Positions 12,187 through 18,642 of a stretch of DNA of 64,000 nucleotides are shown here, one piece after another. The number at the start of each line of letters is the position of its first letter. Position 1 is the stretch's first letter. Made by a program: the position numbers and the translations under genes. The notes beneath the pieces were generated by a model. It did no database searches and had not been told where the DNA came from. It saw only the letters and a list, made by a program, of their open reading frames with translations. This DNA comes from an uncultured Myxococcales bacterium (GTDB lineage: Bacteria > Myxococcota_A > Polyangia > Polyangiales > Polyangiaceae). Location: positions 1-64,000 of the forward strand of contig CALMUT010000343.1 in the NCBI GenBank assembly GCA_937872925.1. Reading direction: 5' to 3'.

Positions 12187-13548
12187 GTGCAAAGAAACTT
12201 TTTTTCTCCGGCGCTTTTACTGCTTGGACTCACCGCAGCGTGCGGCGATGACGCTTCGGAGCCCGCAAACGCTGGCGGCGGCAGCGGTGGCGTTTCGGCC
12301 ACAGGCGGCACTGCCGGAAGCGGCAATGCGGCCGGTAGCGGTGGCGATGCGGCGGCCGCAAGCGGCGGCGTTGCCGGGCAGGCAGGCGGCGCGGGTTCCG
12401 GTGGCGTCGGCGGCACGCAGAGCCAAGAGCTCAAGACCTTCGACGACATCAAGAGCGGTGCGACGAAAGCCAGCGACGGGTTGCTTGCCATCGCACAGGC
12501 CGGTGGATTCCCCATCCCTTCGCCGGCTGGTTTCGTTTTCGCTCGCGTGGATGACGGCAAGGGCCCCTATGCCCTGGCCGGCGACTTCAACGGCTGGACG
12601 CCTGCGCCCATGCAACTCACCCAGGGCATGTACTGGATATCAGTCGCCGTGCCGACTCCGGACGGCGCCAAGTACAAGTTCGTCGACGGCGGCCAGACCT
12701 TTGCCGCAGATCCTTACGCGCGTCGCTACGGCTGGGATCAAAATGGCGAATACTCCTTGGTGCTTTCATCCGCGCCGCACCGCGAGCGCTTCCCGGAGAT
12801 GAGCGGCAACGGCCGCCCGCCGCGCACCGTGCGTCTTTGGATCTCCCAAGCCAAACCCACGCACCACCTCTACACCCACGACGGACAGAATCTATTTGAG
12901 CCCACCTCCATTTTCGGTGGCTGGAAGCTGGATCAAACTGCCGGCGCCAAGACGTTGATCGTCGGCATCGACAACATCGGCGCGGGCCGCATGGACGAAT
13001 ACACCCACATCTCTGACAACATCGGTAGCGGCCCCGTCGGCGGCAAGGGCGACGACTACGCGGACTTCGTCGAACAGGTGGTGCGCCCCGCCGTCGAAAA
13101 GCGCTACGGCACGCCGTCCAAAGTGGGCGTGATGGGCTCATCCCTCGGCGGCTTGATCGCCATCCACCAGGTGCTGCGCCACCCCGGCCGTTACGACTTC
13201 GCCGCCAGTCTCTCCGGCACCCTCGGCTGGGGCAGCTTCGGCCCTCACAAAGAAACTCTCATCGAGCGCTTCGAAACAGCCGGCAAGCAGACCACCAAGA
13301 TCTACCTCGACTCCGGCGGCGGGCCCGGCAGCGGCTGCATCGACAGCGACAGCGACGGGATCCAAGATGACGCCGCTGGCGCCAAAGACAACTACTGCGA
13401 AACGGTCCAACTCCGTGACGTGCTGAGCGCCGCTGGCTACACCTTCGACACAGAGCTCTGGCACTGGTACGAATCCGGCGCACCCCACAGCGAAACCGCC
13501 TGGGCGGCCCGCGCTTTCCGTCCTTTGAGCGCCTTCGAAGCGCTGTAG
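12187..13548 (+). CDS. Secreted esterase lipoprotein with N-terminal CBM48/E-set domain
   Basis: The 453-residue product has a lipoprotein signal (SPALLLLGLTAAC) and then a Gly/Ser/Ala-rich linker of about 70 residues. Next comes an immunoglobulin-like CBM48/E-set domain (YALAGDFNGWTPAPMQL, residues ~123-200) and a C-terminal alpha/beta hydrolase of the enterochelin-esterase (Fes-like) family. The nucleophile elbow is GVMGSSLGGL near residue 315 and the likely catalytic His is in SGAPHSETAW near the C-terminus. A DxDxDG-type loop (DSDSDGIQDD) may bind calcium. GTG 12187 was chosen because it starts the signal peptide. It probably hydrolyses an ester on the cell surface; the substrate (siderophore, polysaccharide ester or other) is open. 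It stands alone on the plus strand, divergent from dnaG. Confidence 0.85.
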   Translation: MQRNFFSPALLLLGLTAACGDDASEPANAGGGSGGVSATGGTAGSGNAAGSGGDAAAASGGVAGQAGGAGSGGVGGTQSQELKTFDDIKSGATKASDGLLAIAQAGGFPIPSPAGFVFARVDDGKGPYALAGDFNGWTPAPMQLTQGMYWISVAVPTPDGAKYKFVDGGQTFAADPYARRYGWDQNGEYSLVLSSAPHRERFPEMSGNGRPPRTVRLWISQAKPTHHLYTHDGQNLFEPTSIFGGWKLDQTAGAKTLIVGIDNIGAGRMDEYTHISDNIGSGPVGGKGDDYADFVEQVVRPAVEKRYGTPSKVGVMGSSLGGLIAIHQVLRHPGRYDFAASLSGTLGWGSFGPHKETLIERFETAGKQTTKIYLDSGGGPGSGCIDSDSDGIQDDAAGAKDNYCETVQLRDVLSAAGYTFDTELWHWYESGAPHSETAWAARAFRPLSAFEAL

Positions 13549-13639
13549 GTCTCCAGTGGTCTTCGGTCGTGGCGCGTGCGCGCCGCGGGTTTGACCCACG
13601 GGCGCTGGCGGGGGATCCTGGAAATGGAGGCCTTCCCTT

Positions 13640-14158
13640 ATGCGACGCACTCTCGTGATGCTCTTCGGCGTGCTGTCCAGCGGCTGCTTCTCCATGGTGT
13701 ACGACGCACAAGCAGGCGCCGTATCGTCGACGCGCTTCACGCAGGGGCGCTACGGCGGCGCGGTGCAGTTGGCCGCCGGTGGAAACCTGAGCGATCGTGA
13801 CAGGTCGGCGGAGAGCGTCGGGCCGGGGCTCGACGTCCGCGGGAAGTTCACCGAAGACATCCAACAAGTATCCTTCGGCCCCCACCTGTACTTAATCAGT
13901 TCGTCCTGGGTCACGCCCTACGCACGTGCGGGGGCCACCTTGCTTGAGGTGGGCAGCGTCGACGGCGCCGGCACCTTCGGCTCCCTCGGGCCTCGCGGCG
14001 AGGTCGGGATGTTCTTCGGCCCCTTCGTGATCTCGACCTTCGCCGAATACGACCTTCGCTGGACTTCCCAGGATCACGAGGGTTTCGTGGGTGTGATGGC
14101 AGGCATCGGCACTGCCGTGTCCAGCAAGTCGCCTCGGGAGGCGTTGCAGATCCCATAG
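13640..14158 (+). CDS. Small outer-membrane-type lipoprotein of unknown function
   Basis: The 172-residue product has a short signal peptide with a lipobox (MRRTLVMLFGVLSSGC). The rest is rich in Gly and alternating hydrophobic residues (FGPHLYLISSSWVTPYARAG, GEVGMFFGPFVISTFAEYDL), which looks like an amphipathic eight-stranded beta barrel. A good GGAGG ribosome site lies 9 bases before the ATG. I recognise no family motif. It is 91 bases after the esterase gene and followed by a repeat copy and the RCC1 gene pair. Confidence 0.75.
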   Translation: MRRTLVMLFGVLSSGCFSMVYDAQAGAVSSTRFTQGRYGGAVQLAAGGNLSDRDRSAESVGPGLDVRGKFTEDIQQVSFGPHLYLISSSWVTPYARAGATLLEVGSVDGAGTFGSLGPRGEVGMFFGPFVISTFAEYDLRWTSQDHEGFVGVMAGIGTAVSSKSPREALQIP

Positions 14159-14188
14159 AAACGCCACGCGCGGCGAGTTGCTCCGCGA

Positions 14189-14220
14189 TCGGATGCCCAG
14201 CGTCGACGCGAAACCCCATG
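14189..14220. repeat. Left copy of a 32-base direct repeat flanking the RCC1 pair
   Basis: This block matches 17769-17800 with 29 of 32 bases identical and the same orientation. Its centre is the perfect palindrome GCGTCGACGC. Weaker similarity (GCTCCG upstream, ATG-CCT-CCC downstream) extends the match to about 45 bases with small gaps. It sits in the gap between the small lipoprotein gene and the first RCC1 gene. Confidence 0.8.
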
Positions 14221-14317
14221 CCTTCCCCATCGCTGCCGCTTCCAGGGGAGCGGGCGGGCGCTTGTCAGCTTCTTGTCCGTGGACCACGCAAGCAAGATGT
14301 AGTGCAGTAATAGGCGC

Positions 14318-15934
14318 GTGGGACCGAACCTGGCAGCATCGATCGGCGTGAGCGTGGCCATAGCGGTCGCCACGACCGCCTGCGGCAAAAGTGAACGTGA
14401 TCCGTCGACGGCAACGGGTGGCGCTGAATCGGGCGGCGGCGGGGGTGCCCAGACGGGTGGAGTCGCTGGCGGGAGTGGCGGGGTCGCTGGGAGCGGCAGT
14501 GGCGGGGCAGCTGGCGGCGGCAGCGGTGGCGCCGGGGCCGGCGCCATGGGGGGCGCCTCTGCAGGCGCGGGTGGCGGGTGCTCAGCGACCGAGTTGCAGT
14601 GCGCGGGGGCGTGCGTCGATGCGGCGACGGACGCCAACAACTGCGGCGCGTGCGGCAGTGTCTGCGCGAGCGGAGCCGTGTGCGTGAAGGGCACGTGTGC
14701 GTGCCCGGACACACAGACGCTATGCGGTGGAGCGTGCGCGGATACAAACGCGGACGCGAGTAACTGCGGTGATTGCGGCCAGACCTGCCTGAGCGGCGGG
14801 CTGTGTCTCGCGGGCAAGTGCGCCTGCCCCGACGCTCAAATGGAGTGCGGCGGCGCGTGTGTGGACGCGGAACGGGATGTCGCGAATTGTGGAAGCTGCG
14901 GCAATGCGTGCGCGACGAACTTGACGTGCATTGAGGGCACATGTGGTCCATGGGCGGAGCAAGTTGCGCTTTCCGAAACCGGAGACGCTTGCGCGCGGTT
15001 CAAAGATGACACCGTCCGTTGCTGGAAAATCGGAGTCGCGCCGACGGCTCCCTTCAGTCTGCCGGGCGTGGTCCAAGTCGAGAAAGGCCATGATTCTTCA
15101 TGCGCCTTGCTTAGCGACGGCACAGTTCGCTGCTGGGGATGGAACTTCTACGGGCAGCTCGGCGACGGTACGAACGTGGACAGGCTGGCCCCTGTCGCCG
15201 TCAAGGGATTGGAGGGCGTGCAGCAAATCTCCACCGGAGAGTATCACTCTTGTGCACGCCTGTCGGATGGCACGATTCGATGCTGGGGCAGCAACCTCAG
15301 TGGTGAAATTGGCGGAGGCGGCGGCACCTGGAAAATGCACGCGACGCCGGTGCCAGTGCCTGGCGTGTCACAGGTGGCTGCCGTCGCAGCTGGGACCCGA
15401 CATACCTGCGTGGGCCTGAACGATGGCGGCGTTCGCTGTTGGGGAACGAGTTACAAAGGCGGCCTAGGGGTTGGTCCCACTGACGGCATTGTAGTCAAGC
15501 CGACCACGGTGCCCTTTCTTCCCGGTGTCATACAGGTAGCTGCCGGCCTCAATAGTACTTGCGCGCTGCTCGGCACTGGCTCGGTCAAATGCTGGGGGCA
15601 AGGGTACTTTGGTAGCCTCGGGAATCACTCTTCACCGAAGTCCATCGTCGGGTTGAGCAATGTCGCGCAGATCGCAACCAGCGGCGCGCACCACTGCGCG
15701 CTCGACAAGGATGGCAGCCTGCGGTGTTGGGGCAAGAATCACGGCGGCCAGGTTGGGGACGGAACGACCACGGAGCGTCTGGCTCCAACACTCGTTTCTG
15801 CCATCGCGGAAGTGAAGCAGGTTGCTCTGCAGCCGATGGGCAACACCTGTGCGTGTCGTGCGGACGGCGCCGTGTTCTGTTGGGGATACAGTGCGAGTGA
15901 GCCTGCGCCGATCCCGACGCGGGTGAAGTTTTGA
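14318..15934 (+). CDS. RCC1-repeat lipoprotein with Cys-rich modules (first of pair)
   Basis: The 538-residue product has an export signal ending at Cys22 (AVATTAC, a weak lipobox), a Gly/Ala/Ser linker, then three tandem Cys-rich modules of the form CxGxCxD(x)7NCGxCGxxC (residues about 88-210). After these come seven RCC1-type repeats with the core SCARLSDGTIRCWG, ending near the C-terminus; seven is the number in a closed propeller. Nearly every blade has one Cys before and one in CWG, suggesting a disulfide per blade. It is probably displayed on the cell surface as a binding protein; no ligand is known. GTG 14318 is assumed; a GTG ten codons later would shorten the signal. Its stop overlaps the next gene's TTG by 4 bases. 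Confidence 0.85.
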   Translation: MGPNLAASIGVSVAIAVATTACGKSERDPSTATGGAESGGGGGAQTGGVAGGSGGVAGSGSGGAAGGGSGGAGAGAMGGASAGAGGGCSATELQCAGACVDAATDANNCGACGSVCASGAVCVKGTCACPDTQTLCGGACADTNADASNCGDCGQTCLSGGLCLAGKCACPDAQMECGGACVDAERDVANCGSCGNACATNLTCIEGTCGPWAEQVALSETGDACARFKDDTVRCWKIGVAPTAPFSLPGVVQVEKGHDSSCALLSDGTVRCWGWNFYGQLGDGTNVDRLAPVAVKGLEGVQQISTGEYHSCARLSDGTIRCWGSNLSGEIGGGGGTWKMHATPVPVPGVSQVAAVAAGTRHTCVGLNDGGVRCWGTSYKGGLGVGPTDGIVVKPTTVPFLPGVIQVAAGLNSTCALLGTGSVKCWGQGYFGSLGNHSSPKSIVGLSNVAQIATSGAHHCALDKDGSLRCWGKNHGGQVGDGTTTERLAPTLVSAIAEVKQVALQPMGNTCACRADGAVFCWGYSASEPAPIPTRVKF

Positions 15935-17763
15935 CGTACCCGAAAATTCGCGGTTGGCCGGCGCTCTGGGTTGCCGTTGCGCTCGGAACGCTCCCGCTGG
16001 CTTGTGGAGCCAGCGACGGTCTCGCGCCGGGCATGCAGACCGATGCAGATGCGGGTGGCAGCGGCGGGGCGGCTGGGGAAACACCTGATTCTGGGTGGGG
16101 CGCGGGCACCGGCAGTTCGGGCAGCTCGGGAGTCGGCGGACAGGGCGGTGCTACTGGTGGCAGCTCGGGGGCTGCTGGCGTGGACGCGGGCGCGGCCGGG
16201 GCAACGGGAGGCAGCGCTGGCGCGGCGGGAGCCGGCTCGGGAGGAGCCGCGGGTGCGACTGGCGGCAGCGCCGGCGCGACCGGTTGCGCCGGTGCCGCGG
16301 CGCTCTGCAGTGGGCTTTGCACCGACACCACGGGCGATCCCAACAACTGCGGCACGTGCGGGAATGTCTGCCCAAGCGGCGCGAGTTGCTCGGCGGGACA
16401 ATGTGCCTGCGCCAGTGGGGCCGTGGTGTGCAAGGGGGTGTGTGCGGACACCAGCGTAGACGTGAGCCACTGCGGTACGTGCGGGAACGCGTGTGTGTTC
16501 GGGGCCGTTTGCACCCTGGGTGTGTGCGAATGTCCCGGCACGATGTGCGGCGCGCATTGTCGACACACCGACGTGGACTCAGAGAATTGCGGTGCCTGTG
16601 GCAAGGTATGCGCGCCCCATCTGGGCTGCGCAGGAGGCACCTGTGCTTGCAGCGTGGGCAGCACGGATTGTGGGCCGTTCTGTGTAGCACCCGGATCCGT
16701 TTGCCCTGTCCCGGTGCAGATTTCCGTTGGCGGCCAGCACACCTGCGCACGGCTCAGTAATGGGCTCGTCCTCTGCTCGGGATCGAACGTGGACGGGCAG
16801 GTCGGTGACGGTTCCGCTGGCTTCCCAAACTGGGACAAGCCCTATCCTGTGTTCGTGGTGGGGCTAAGCGGCGTTGCGCAAGTCGTGGCAGGCGGCACCT
16901 TCAGCTGCGCACGCATGCTGGACGGCTCCGTGAATTGTTGGGGTGGTGGCGAAGGGTTGGGGAACGGTACCTGGGGAAACAAGCTGTTGCCGACGCCCAT
17001 TCCCGGGTTCTCCGGCGTGGCGGAACTGGCGGCAGGTGGCATGCACAGCTGCGCTCGGATGGCGAACGGTACGGTGCAGTGTTGGGGGAACAACTACTCT
17101 GCCCAACTAGGTGACGGTTCCACGACCCACAGGGCTTCTCCTGGCCCAGTCCCGGGCGTGGTCGGCGTGGCGGGGATCGCGGCGGGAACCGGCCACTCCT
17201 GCGCGCGGCTCAATGGCGGGACGGTTCAATGCTGGGGAAAGAACGACTCCGGTCAGCTCGGGGATGGCACGACGATCGGACAACCCCTGGCCGTGGCAGT
17301 GCCCAAGCTCGCCAACGTGGTGGAAGTTTCACTCGGCTGGAACCACAGCTGCGCTCGGATCGCCGATGGCAGCGTTCAGTGCTGGGGTGACAACACTCAC
17401 GGGCAGCTCGGCGACGGGACCAAAGCGAACCGGGCGTCGCCGGCGCCAGTTGTCGGGTTGAGCGGCGTTGAGCAGATCGCGCTCGGCGGCGAACATTCTT
17501 GTGCCCGCATGGCCGGAGGCACTGTCCGCTGCTGGGGACAGAACGCCGCTGGCCAACTTGGGGATGGCACGACGGACGACAAGCTGTCCCCGACGCCGAT
17601 CCCGGGCCTCAGTGTGGTCGAAATCGCGCTCGGGGGCTATCACTCCTGCGCGCGACTGAAGGACGGCTCCGTGTACTGCTGGGGCGAGAACGACCATGGG
17701 CAACTTGGCACTGGAGTGGTGTCCCCGGTGCCGAGTCTGATTCCGACTCTCACGCTCTGGTAG
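15931..17763 (+). CDS. RCC1-repeat lipoprotein with Cys-rich modules (second of pair)
   Basis: This 610-residue protein is a diverged paralogue of the gene before it. It has a signal peptide with a good lipobox (ALGTLPLAC), a long Gly/Ala/Ser linker (to about residue 120), Cys-rich modules (NNCGTCGNVC, SHCGTCGNAC, ENCGACGKVC), and seven RCC1 repeats with consensus HSCARLxDGTVQCWGxNxxGQLGDGT. These repeats are more regular than those of its neighbour. The start is TTG 15931, inside the TTGA overlap with the preceding stop, so translation is likely coupled; no better in-frame start precedes the signal peptide. Surface display is inferred from the lipobox. The enzyme or binding role is unknown. 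Confidence 0.85.
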   Translation: MTYPKIRGWPALWVAVALGTLPLACGASDGLAPGMQTDADAGGSGGAAGETPDSGWGAGTGSSGSSGVGGQGGATGGSSGAAGVDAGAAGATGGSAGAAGAGSGGAAGATGGSAGATGCAGAAALCSGLCTDTTGDPNNCGTCGNVCPSGASCSAGQCACASGAVVCKGVCADTSVDVSHCGTCGNACVFGAVCTLGVCECPGTMCGAHCRHTDVDSENCGACGKVCAPHLGCAGGTCACSVGSTDCGPFCVAPGSVCPVPVQISVGGQHTCARLSNGLVLCSGSNVDGQVGDGSAGFPNWDKPYPVFVVGLSGVAQVVAGGTFSCARMLDGSVNCWGGGEGLGNGTWGNKLLPTPIPGFSGVAELAAGGMHSCARMANGTVQCWGNNYSAQLGDGSTTHRASPGPVPGVVGVAGIAAGTGHSCARLNGGTVQCWGKNDSGQLGDGTTIGQPLAVAVPKLANVVEVSLGWNHSCARIADGSVQCWGDNTHGQLGDGTKANRASPAPVVGLSGVEQIALGGEHSCARMAGGTVRCWGQNAAGQLGDGTTDDKLSPTPIPGLSVVEIALGGYHSCARLKDGSVYCWGENDHGQLGTGVVSPVPSLIPTLTLW

Positions 17764-17768
17764 CTCCG

Positions 17769-17800
17769 TCGGATGCCAAGCGTCGACGCGAAGCCCGATG
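17769..17800. repeat. Right copy of the 32-base direct repeat
   Basis: It pairs with 14189-14220 (three mismatches, same orientation, 3580 bases apart). It begins 6 bases after the second RCC1 stop and ends exactly where recognisable alpha/beta hydrolase coding sequence on the minus strand breaks off. Confidence 0.8.
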
Positions 17801-17802
17801 GC

Positions 17803-18060
17803 CTAGCCCGGCATGTCGACTACCGCCGCGCCGCATATAGCGGTGATCCGGGGCAGGACTCGCTCCCAATCGACCACCGAGCCCGGATTGCCATGGAGCA
17901 GGAGGCACTTGGGTCGATTGCTTTGGCTCGGGTCGGGGCGCACAATCGCGCGGACCCTGCGGCCCGACGAAAGCGTCAGTTCAACGGATTCGTCGTAGGG
18001 GCTAGTCACGTCGTCCGCGCGGACTCTAGCAGAGCCGCCTACCGGCATCTGAGTCGACAC
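17803..18060 (-). pseudogene. Truncated alpha/beta hydrolase (N-terminal remnant)
   Basis: The 85-codon frame looks like the start of an alpha/beta hydrolase: a strand region (SVELTLSSGRRVRAIVR), the oxyanion-hole motif LLLHGNPGSVVDWERVLPRI, then AAVVDMPG, after which a typical member continues with GxG and some 200 more residues. Here a TAG follows at once, and the nucleophile, acid and His parts are absent from the neighbouring sequence. The break coincides with the border of the direct repeat. It may start at GTG 18060 or ATG 18048. A real short protein cannot be excluded, but loss of the catalytic half makes a relic more likely. Confidence 0.6.
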
Positions 18061-18131
18061 GAGCGCCGCCGTCGAAACCCCCGTGCGCCGCGGCGGCGGA
18101 AGATTTCCCGACGCCGTGCGTATTTGGGGCG

Positions 18132-18545
18132 GTGAAGGGCCCAGTTCGTCTGCTGGTCGGTGCGCTCACGCTGCTGCCATTGGTTGCCGTCTTTGGGGTG
18201 GCGTGCGTGGCGGCGTATTTATTGGTGCAAAGTGAGCTTTCGACCCATGGCAGGCTCCGGGATCCGTTCACAGCGCTGCTGGAGATGGATCGGGAAATCT
18301 GGTTCGTGATCGTGGCCGCCGCGTTCTTCATCGCCATCTACGATCTTCTGCTCGCCTTCGGGCTCATCGTGCACGCCTTCACCCGGGCGTATATGTCCAT
18401 CGGCGCCAAGCTTGCCTGGTCTTTCGGCCTGGTGTTCTTCGGCTTTGCAGCGGCGCCATTGTACTGGCTGGTGCATCTGGCGCGCGCTGTGCCCAGGCCG
18501 CTGGCGCAAAGTTTCACCGGGTCCGTGCCGGCTGCACCCGCGTGA
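18132..18545 (+). CDS. Small integral membrane protein, unknown function
   Basis: The 137-residue product has three clear hydrophobic segments (about residues 6-30, 52-80 and 90-115; the middle one is long enough to span twice). Charged loops include STHGRLRDPFTALLEMDREI. The GTG start at 18132 has only a weak G-rich ribosome site. It is not in an operon: the truncated hydrolase lies divergent upstream and DUF924 converges downstream. No family is recognised. Confidence 0.65.
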   Translation: MKGPVRLLVGALTLLPLVAVFGVACVAAYLLVQSELSTHGRLRDPFTALLEMDREIWFVIVAAAFFIAIYDLLLAFGLIVHAFTRAYMSIGAKLAWSFGLVFFGFAAAPLYWLVHLARAVPRPLAQSFTGSVPAAPA

Positions 18546-18642
18546 AGGGGCGGCGAACGCCTGGGATTAGTGGCCCAGTGCGCCCCAGCGCCACGACCCA
18601 AACCCACCCCAGGTCAACGACGGCGGGGATGTCGTGGGAGGT

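Follow-up and report, generated by a model that had tools for sequence, protein, structure and literature searches.

Results

The window, a stretch of 64,000 nucleotides from an uncultured Myxococcales bacterium (contig CALMUT010000343.1, positions 1 to 64,000), contains a block of accessory genes (13549..18642) between convergent esterase and DUF924 genes, which end at 13548 and 18643, respectively; the whole block is absent from the same-genus genome G001. From left to right, the block comprises a gene for a 172-aa protein (13640..14158, plus strand), two RCC1-repeat lipoprotein-like genes of 538 aa (14318..15934, plus strand) and 610 aa (15931..17763, plus strand), an N-terminal fragment of an alpha/beta hydrolase gene (17803..18048, minus strand; 81 aa, then a stop), recognized by similarity to homologues, and a gene for a 137-aa membrane-like protein (18132..18545, plus strand). 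A direct repeat, with its left copy at 14177..14228 and its right copy at 17760..17809 (both plus strand), flanks the RCC1 genes.

RCC1 gene pair

The two RCC1 genes, identified from their reading frames and Pfam matches and, for the second gene, also by pairwise comparison, overlap by 4 bases, and their products are 42% identical over 469 aligned positions. RCC1 repeats scored above the Pfam gathering score in both proteins (PF13540, 145.7 and 201.4 bits; PF00415, 108.4 and 183.7 bits), which confirms the RCC1 part of an earlier sequence-only reading of this DNA; the lipoprotein part agrees with a lipoprotein-like N-terminus seen by eye on both proteins. Both also contain Stig1-like cysteine repeats. 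As other RCC1 proteins of the window genome and of G001 are only 42-48% identical to the pair, and over shorter stretches, the pair was not copied recently from a different RCC1 locus in the window genome.

Hydrolase fragment

The hydrolase fragment contains the sequence LLLHGNPG and ends with DMPG followed by the stop codon (17803-17805); the nucleophile motif and everything after it are missing. The homologues in two members of the family continue with GFGRSPR or GFGGSPR and have the nucleophile motif GQSHGGG or GHSHGGG. These two, at 42-44%, are the relatives of the N-terminus found in the family, and the other genes of the block are absent around them; sampling the phylum evenly yielded no additional match at an E value of 1e-6. 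The C-terminal half was found neither across the RCC1 pair nor elsewhere in the window or the genome, where only distant paralogues in long open frames were detected. The remnant is a dead fragment. The similarity ends at 17806, 6 bases from the edge of the core repeat and about 4 bases inside its gapped extension; the sequence-only reading, which placed this loss exactly at the repeat edge, was right to within a few bases. That reading had also proposed looking in a relative for an uninterrupted hydrolase gene lacking the RCC1 genes; among the relatives examined, none has an intact hydrolase gene at the locus.

Direct repeat

The cores of the two copies, detected as a self-match of the window, are 32 bases long (14189-14220 and 17769-17800), lie in the same orientation, and share 29 of 32 bases (91%). 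A perfect palindrome, GCGTCGACGC, is present in both (14200-14209 and 17780-17789). The block, its identities, its orientation on either side of the RCC1 genes, and its palindromic core are thus as first described from the sequence. Gapped alignment widened the similarity to 14177-14228 and 17760-17809 (53 columns, 81%), so that the left end of the right copy includes the stop codon of the second RCC1 gene. Dinucleotide-preserving shuffles of the window yielded no match like the 32-base pair, and eight Markov copies of the window yielded no direct pair of this quality. The edges are sharp: beyond them, on both sides, the flanking sequences resemble each other no more than random pairs do, and there is no longer duplication. 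The divergence of the copies implies either that the event was not recent or that the two have different origins. As a draft assembly (377 contigs, 9.39 Mb), the genome may contain an assembly error here, judging from the sequence alone.

In a pattern search of the whole genome allowing up to three mismatches, the pair in the window were the only places where the block occurs. A DNA search of the genome with a 71-base query found the second copy (E = 4e-6); all remaining matches were short, with E values of about 0.007, a level that the same query also reached in other genomes. Among 182 other genomes of the order, there were five matches with two mismatches, versus two for a reversed control pattern, and no copy comparable to the repeat in the window. 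A collection of 85,000 genomes gave six exact matches, all in Burkholderiales/Pseudomonadota MAG contigs and inside long open frames; the coding frame at these sites reads RFASTLGIL..., and five of the six appeared, by eye, to be type II secretion F-like sequences. The restriction of all six to Burkholderiales/Pseudomonadota MAGs at first suggested true relatives of the repeat; we rejected this, as every one of them falls within a long coding frame, and we interpret them as codon matches that arose by chance. Viral contigs gave no exact match.

Neither copy folds better than its shuffles or has a terminator, there is no Rfam match and hence no structured RNA was found, and the window contains no tRNA. 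An origin of the repeat as a remnant of the hydrolase gene or of the sequence behind the 172-aa gene was also rejected; the alignments were at shuffle level, with one marginal value among fourteen.

Comparison with relatives

G001 is the sole same-genus genome compared and also the nearest relative, with about 66-73% DNA identity. Its esterase and DUF924 genes are in the same order and face each other, with a stop-to-stop gap of 12 bp (L050 4702-4713) versus 5,094 bp in the window; all five members of the block, from the 172-aa gene to the 137-aa gene, are missing at the locus. The missing unit is thus larger than the segment bounded by the repeats and includes the hydrolase fragment itself. 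In G055, from a sister genus, the interval from the esterase gene to the next shared gene contains different genes, none of them from the block. This observation, together with the gene-free gap in G001, indicates that the place adjoining the esterase gene is variable in content.

Each gene of the block has its own distribution among the relatives. The 172-aa protein has homologues elsewhere in other genera, with about 60% identity at an unrelated place in the genus of G055 and none in G001; weak homologues of the 137-aa protein occur elsewhere in the family. Gain in the lineage of the window is more likely than loss in G001. Direct repeats are present at both ends of the RCC1 segment; no empty site with one copy of the repeat was seen at base precision, because even the nearest relative is only 66-73% identical in DNA.

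Similar pairs elsewhere in the genome

We scanned 1.11 Mb of the window genome by self-comparison, with genes called by a simple heuristic of reading frames and third-position GC. A pair was regarded as clean if it had exactly two copies; short-range pairs, repeats with at least three copies, and pairs with one side fully coding were set aside by inspection. Five further unique direct pairs were found (71-209 bp, 85-100% identity), flanking 0.7-6.3 kb with accessory genes. They are located at C157 94456-94565 and 99936-100045 (110 bp, 100%), C129 84947 and 91291 (90 bp, 88%), C129 54003-54082 and 56823-56902 (80 bp, 85%), C81 47621-47826 and 53824-54032 (209 bp, 94%), and C198 43280 and 44044 (71 bp, 96%). 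The 110-bp repeat covers the 3' ends of mutM and of the gene facing it, and several of the pairs sit at the very ends of both flanking genes. No recombinase was found among the insert genes tested from these pairs.

By the same criterion, the scanned 1.11 Mb contained one inverted pair. The ratio of direct to inverted pairs, including the pair in the window, is thus 6:1, which with such small numbers corresponds to a one-sided p of about 0.06. Three of the five further pairs lie between convergent genes, or four of six if the window is included, where the 172-aa gene faces the hydrolase fragment; by the crude gene calls, 21% of junctions are convergent (p about 0.02, only a guide since orientation was tested after the first cases had been seen).

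As controls, 400 kb of G001 contained two short-range pairs and one pair belonging to a palindromic repeat with many copies, 200 kb of G032 contained no pair, and 200 kb of G055 contained one clean pair, a 57-bp copy of the 3' end of tRNA-Leu around a phage-type integrase gene. The scan therefore recognizes a classical island, from which the pairs of the window genome differ in that no integrase was detected. The samples are too small to claim that the window genome is exceptional in such pairs.

Discussion

We put the probability at about one half that the gap at 13549-18642 is a mosaic accessory block to which the RCC1 pair was added, together with a duplicated junction sequence, and with no recombinase. 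The RCC1 unit (about 14229-17759) would have entered where the 172-aa gene adjoined a hydrolase fragment that was already broken, and the sequence at this junction would have been duplicated on its entry, leaving one copy on each side. We infer two likeliest routes: a DNA circle with its own copy of the junction may have integrated by a single crossover, or foreign DNA may have been captured while a break with overlapping ends was repaired. The empty locus in G001 and the similar unique pairs in the genome support the accessory block; the addition of the RCC1 pair is supported by the five further direct pairs, two of which involve the 3' ends of mutM and groEL, versus one inverted pair. We prefer a process free of recombinase because the repeat sequence differs from pair to pair and a recombinase was not detected. 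Four observations count against this explanation: at the DNA identity of the nearest relative, no single-copy empty site was seen at base precision, G001 lacks all 5.1 kb and not just the part bounded by the repeats, the copies differ (81% over the whole alignment, 91% in the core), and the contrast between direct and inverted pairs is small in number. The cassette with flanking repeats that the sequence-only reading proposed is accordingly retained as an accessory block with repeats; its insertion into the hydrolase gene is not, as the C-terminus is missing, the repeat is not hydrolase sequence, and the block absent from G001 is larger.

The copies may instead be relics of an ordinary local duplication unrelated to the arrival of the RCC1 genes and only incidentally placed around them, one copy having been transferred to the adjacent gap at some point. 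Their divergence and the mismatch between the repeats and the block missing in G001 fit such an origin, which we nevertheless regard as rather unlikely, given the excess of clean direct pairs over inverted ones in the sampled genome and the position of several pairs at the very ends of both flanking genes. Still less probable, in our view, is that the repeats are attL and attR sites, belonging to a site-specific integrative element whose integrase has been lost. Tyrosine-recombinase islands typically have direct repeats of such a length at the 3' ends of genes, and our scan did find one such island in G055. However, a Pfam search that recognized the G055 integrase as a positive control revealed no recombinase or transposase domain in the RCC1 proteins and their neighbours, and the insert genes tested from the other pairs included no recombinase; every pair has its own sequence, and the copies in the window have diverged. 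The target is also not the 3' end of a tRNA or of a conserved gene, as the window has no tRNA and the right repeat abuts the hydrolase fragment rather than an intact gene. The usual target duplications of insertion sequences and transposons are far shorter than the repeat, at about 50 bp, and a search for repeats in the window found no inverted repeats at the ends of the RCC1 segment; in the absence of a transposase as well, we rejected this class of element.

It is very improbable that a cassette split an intact hydrolase gene and that the repeat is duplicated hydrolase sequence. The end of the hydrolase similarity within 6 bases of the repeat core is what such an insertion would leave, but the other half of the gene was found neither beyond the RCC1 pair nor elsewhere in the window or genome, and in alignments the repeat is unlike the following part of the homologous hydrolases. 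We give equally little credence to a dispersed intergenic or palindromic (REP-like) family that happened to lie in both gaps, or to a terminator or operator. The palindromic decamer in the core agrees with a REP-like element or an operator. Dispersed families (REP- or MITE-like) have many copies per genome, whereas this repeat has two, with none comparable in the 182 genomes of the order, and the six matches elsewhere sit in long open frames of Burkholderiales/Pseudomonadota contigs; the genome-wide search for many copies in ordinary gaps, by which the dispersed family suggested earlier could be recognized, thus refuted that suggestion. A terminator or structured element is contradicted by the folds, which are no better than shuffles, by the lack of a terminator at both copies, and by the negative Rfam search.

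The recombinase-free addition of the RCC1 pair resembles known systems in part. Integrase-borne islands at the 3' ends of tRNAs and genes likewise consist of an accessory segment of a few kb between direct repeats able to restore the 3' end; unlike them, the block has no integrase and the window no tRNA, and the repeats are diverged and of a sequence unique to the locus. In Arabidopsis, the direct repeats around transposed genes are homologous to the target site, and insertion of a circular recombination product has been proposed (Woodhouse et al. 2010, PMC2869330). There, too, genes at new positions lie between direct repeats; however, that case concerns a plant in which a close outgroup shows the target site, and ours a bacterium with no close outgroup. 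In Haloquadratum walsbyi (PMC3119063), strains differ by indels with short direct repeats and by insertions coupled to deletions; accessory segments there occupy defined positions and lack mobility genes, and some of them lie between direct repeats. Those repeats are 4-20 bp long and were read as deletion scars, whereas those of the window genome are about 50-209 bp. The literature on myxobacterial RCC1 lipoproteins and on integrase-less islands was of little direct use.

The locus has the appearance of a scar left when genes were gained in an ordinary way, with a few similar scars elsewhere in the genome. Taken alone, it is of modest significance, amounting to two lineage-specific genes for surface proteins and a dead hydrolase fragment. 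In large genomes of this kind, many accessory genes occur with no visible mobile element. If long, locus-specific direct repeats were the usual scar of arrival, they would make it possible to map where genes were gained and to infer the way in which foreign DNA enters. We consider it doubtful that the lineage gains accessory units by a route that is free of recombinases and leaves target duplications of ~50-210 bp, each specific to its locus and preferably placed where convergent genes end, so that both neighbours keep their 3' ends; the RCC1 pair would then be one such event.

Contents of the other repeat-bounded segments

The pair at C157 encloses 5.4 kb with genes for an ECF sigma factor, a FecR protein, and lipoprotein-like products. 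Between the 80-bp repeats of C129 lies a 2.7-kb segment of low GC, with a FitA-like/PIN toxin-antitoxin pair and a SUKH-family protein. At C81, the last ~140 bases of groEL (its 3' end) and the downstream sequence recur 6 kb on; the enclosed segment is slightly lower in GC, and the proteins tested from it had no Pfam matches. Genes enclosed by the further pairs also include those for a kinase with a sulfatase-modifying-factor domain and a Kazal-domain protein. The tRNA-Leu-integrated island of G055 (L254:2315-4927), with its Phage_integrase gene, is very small (about 2.5 kb).
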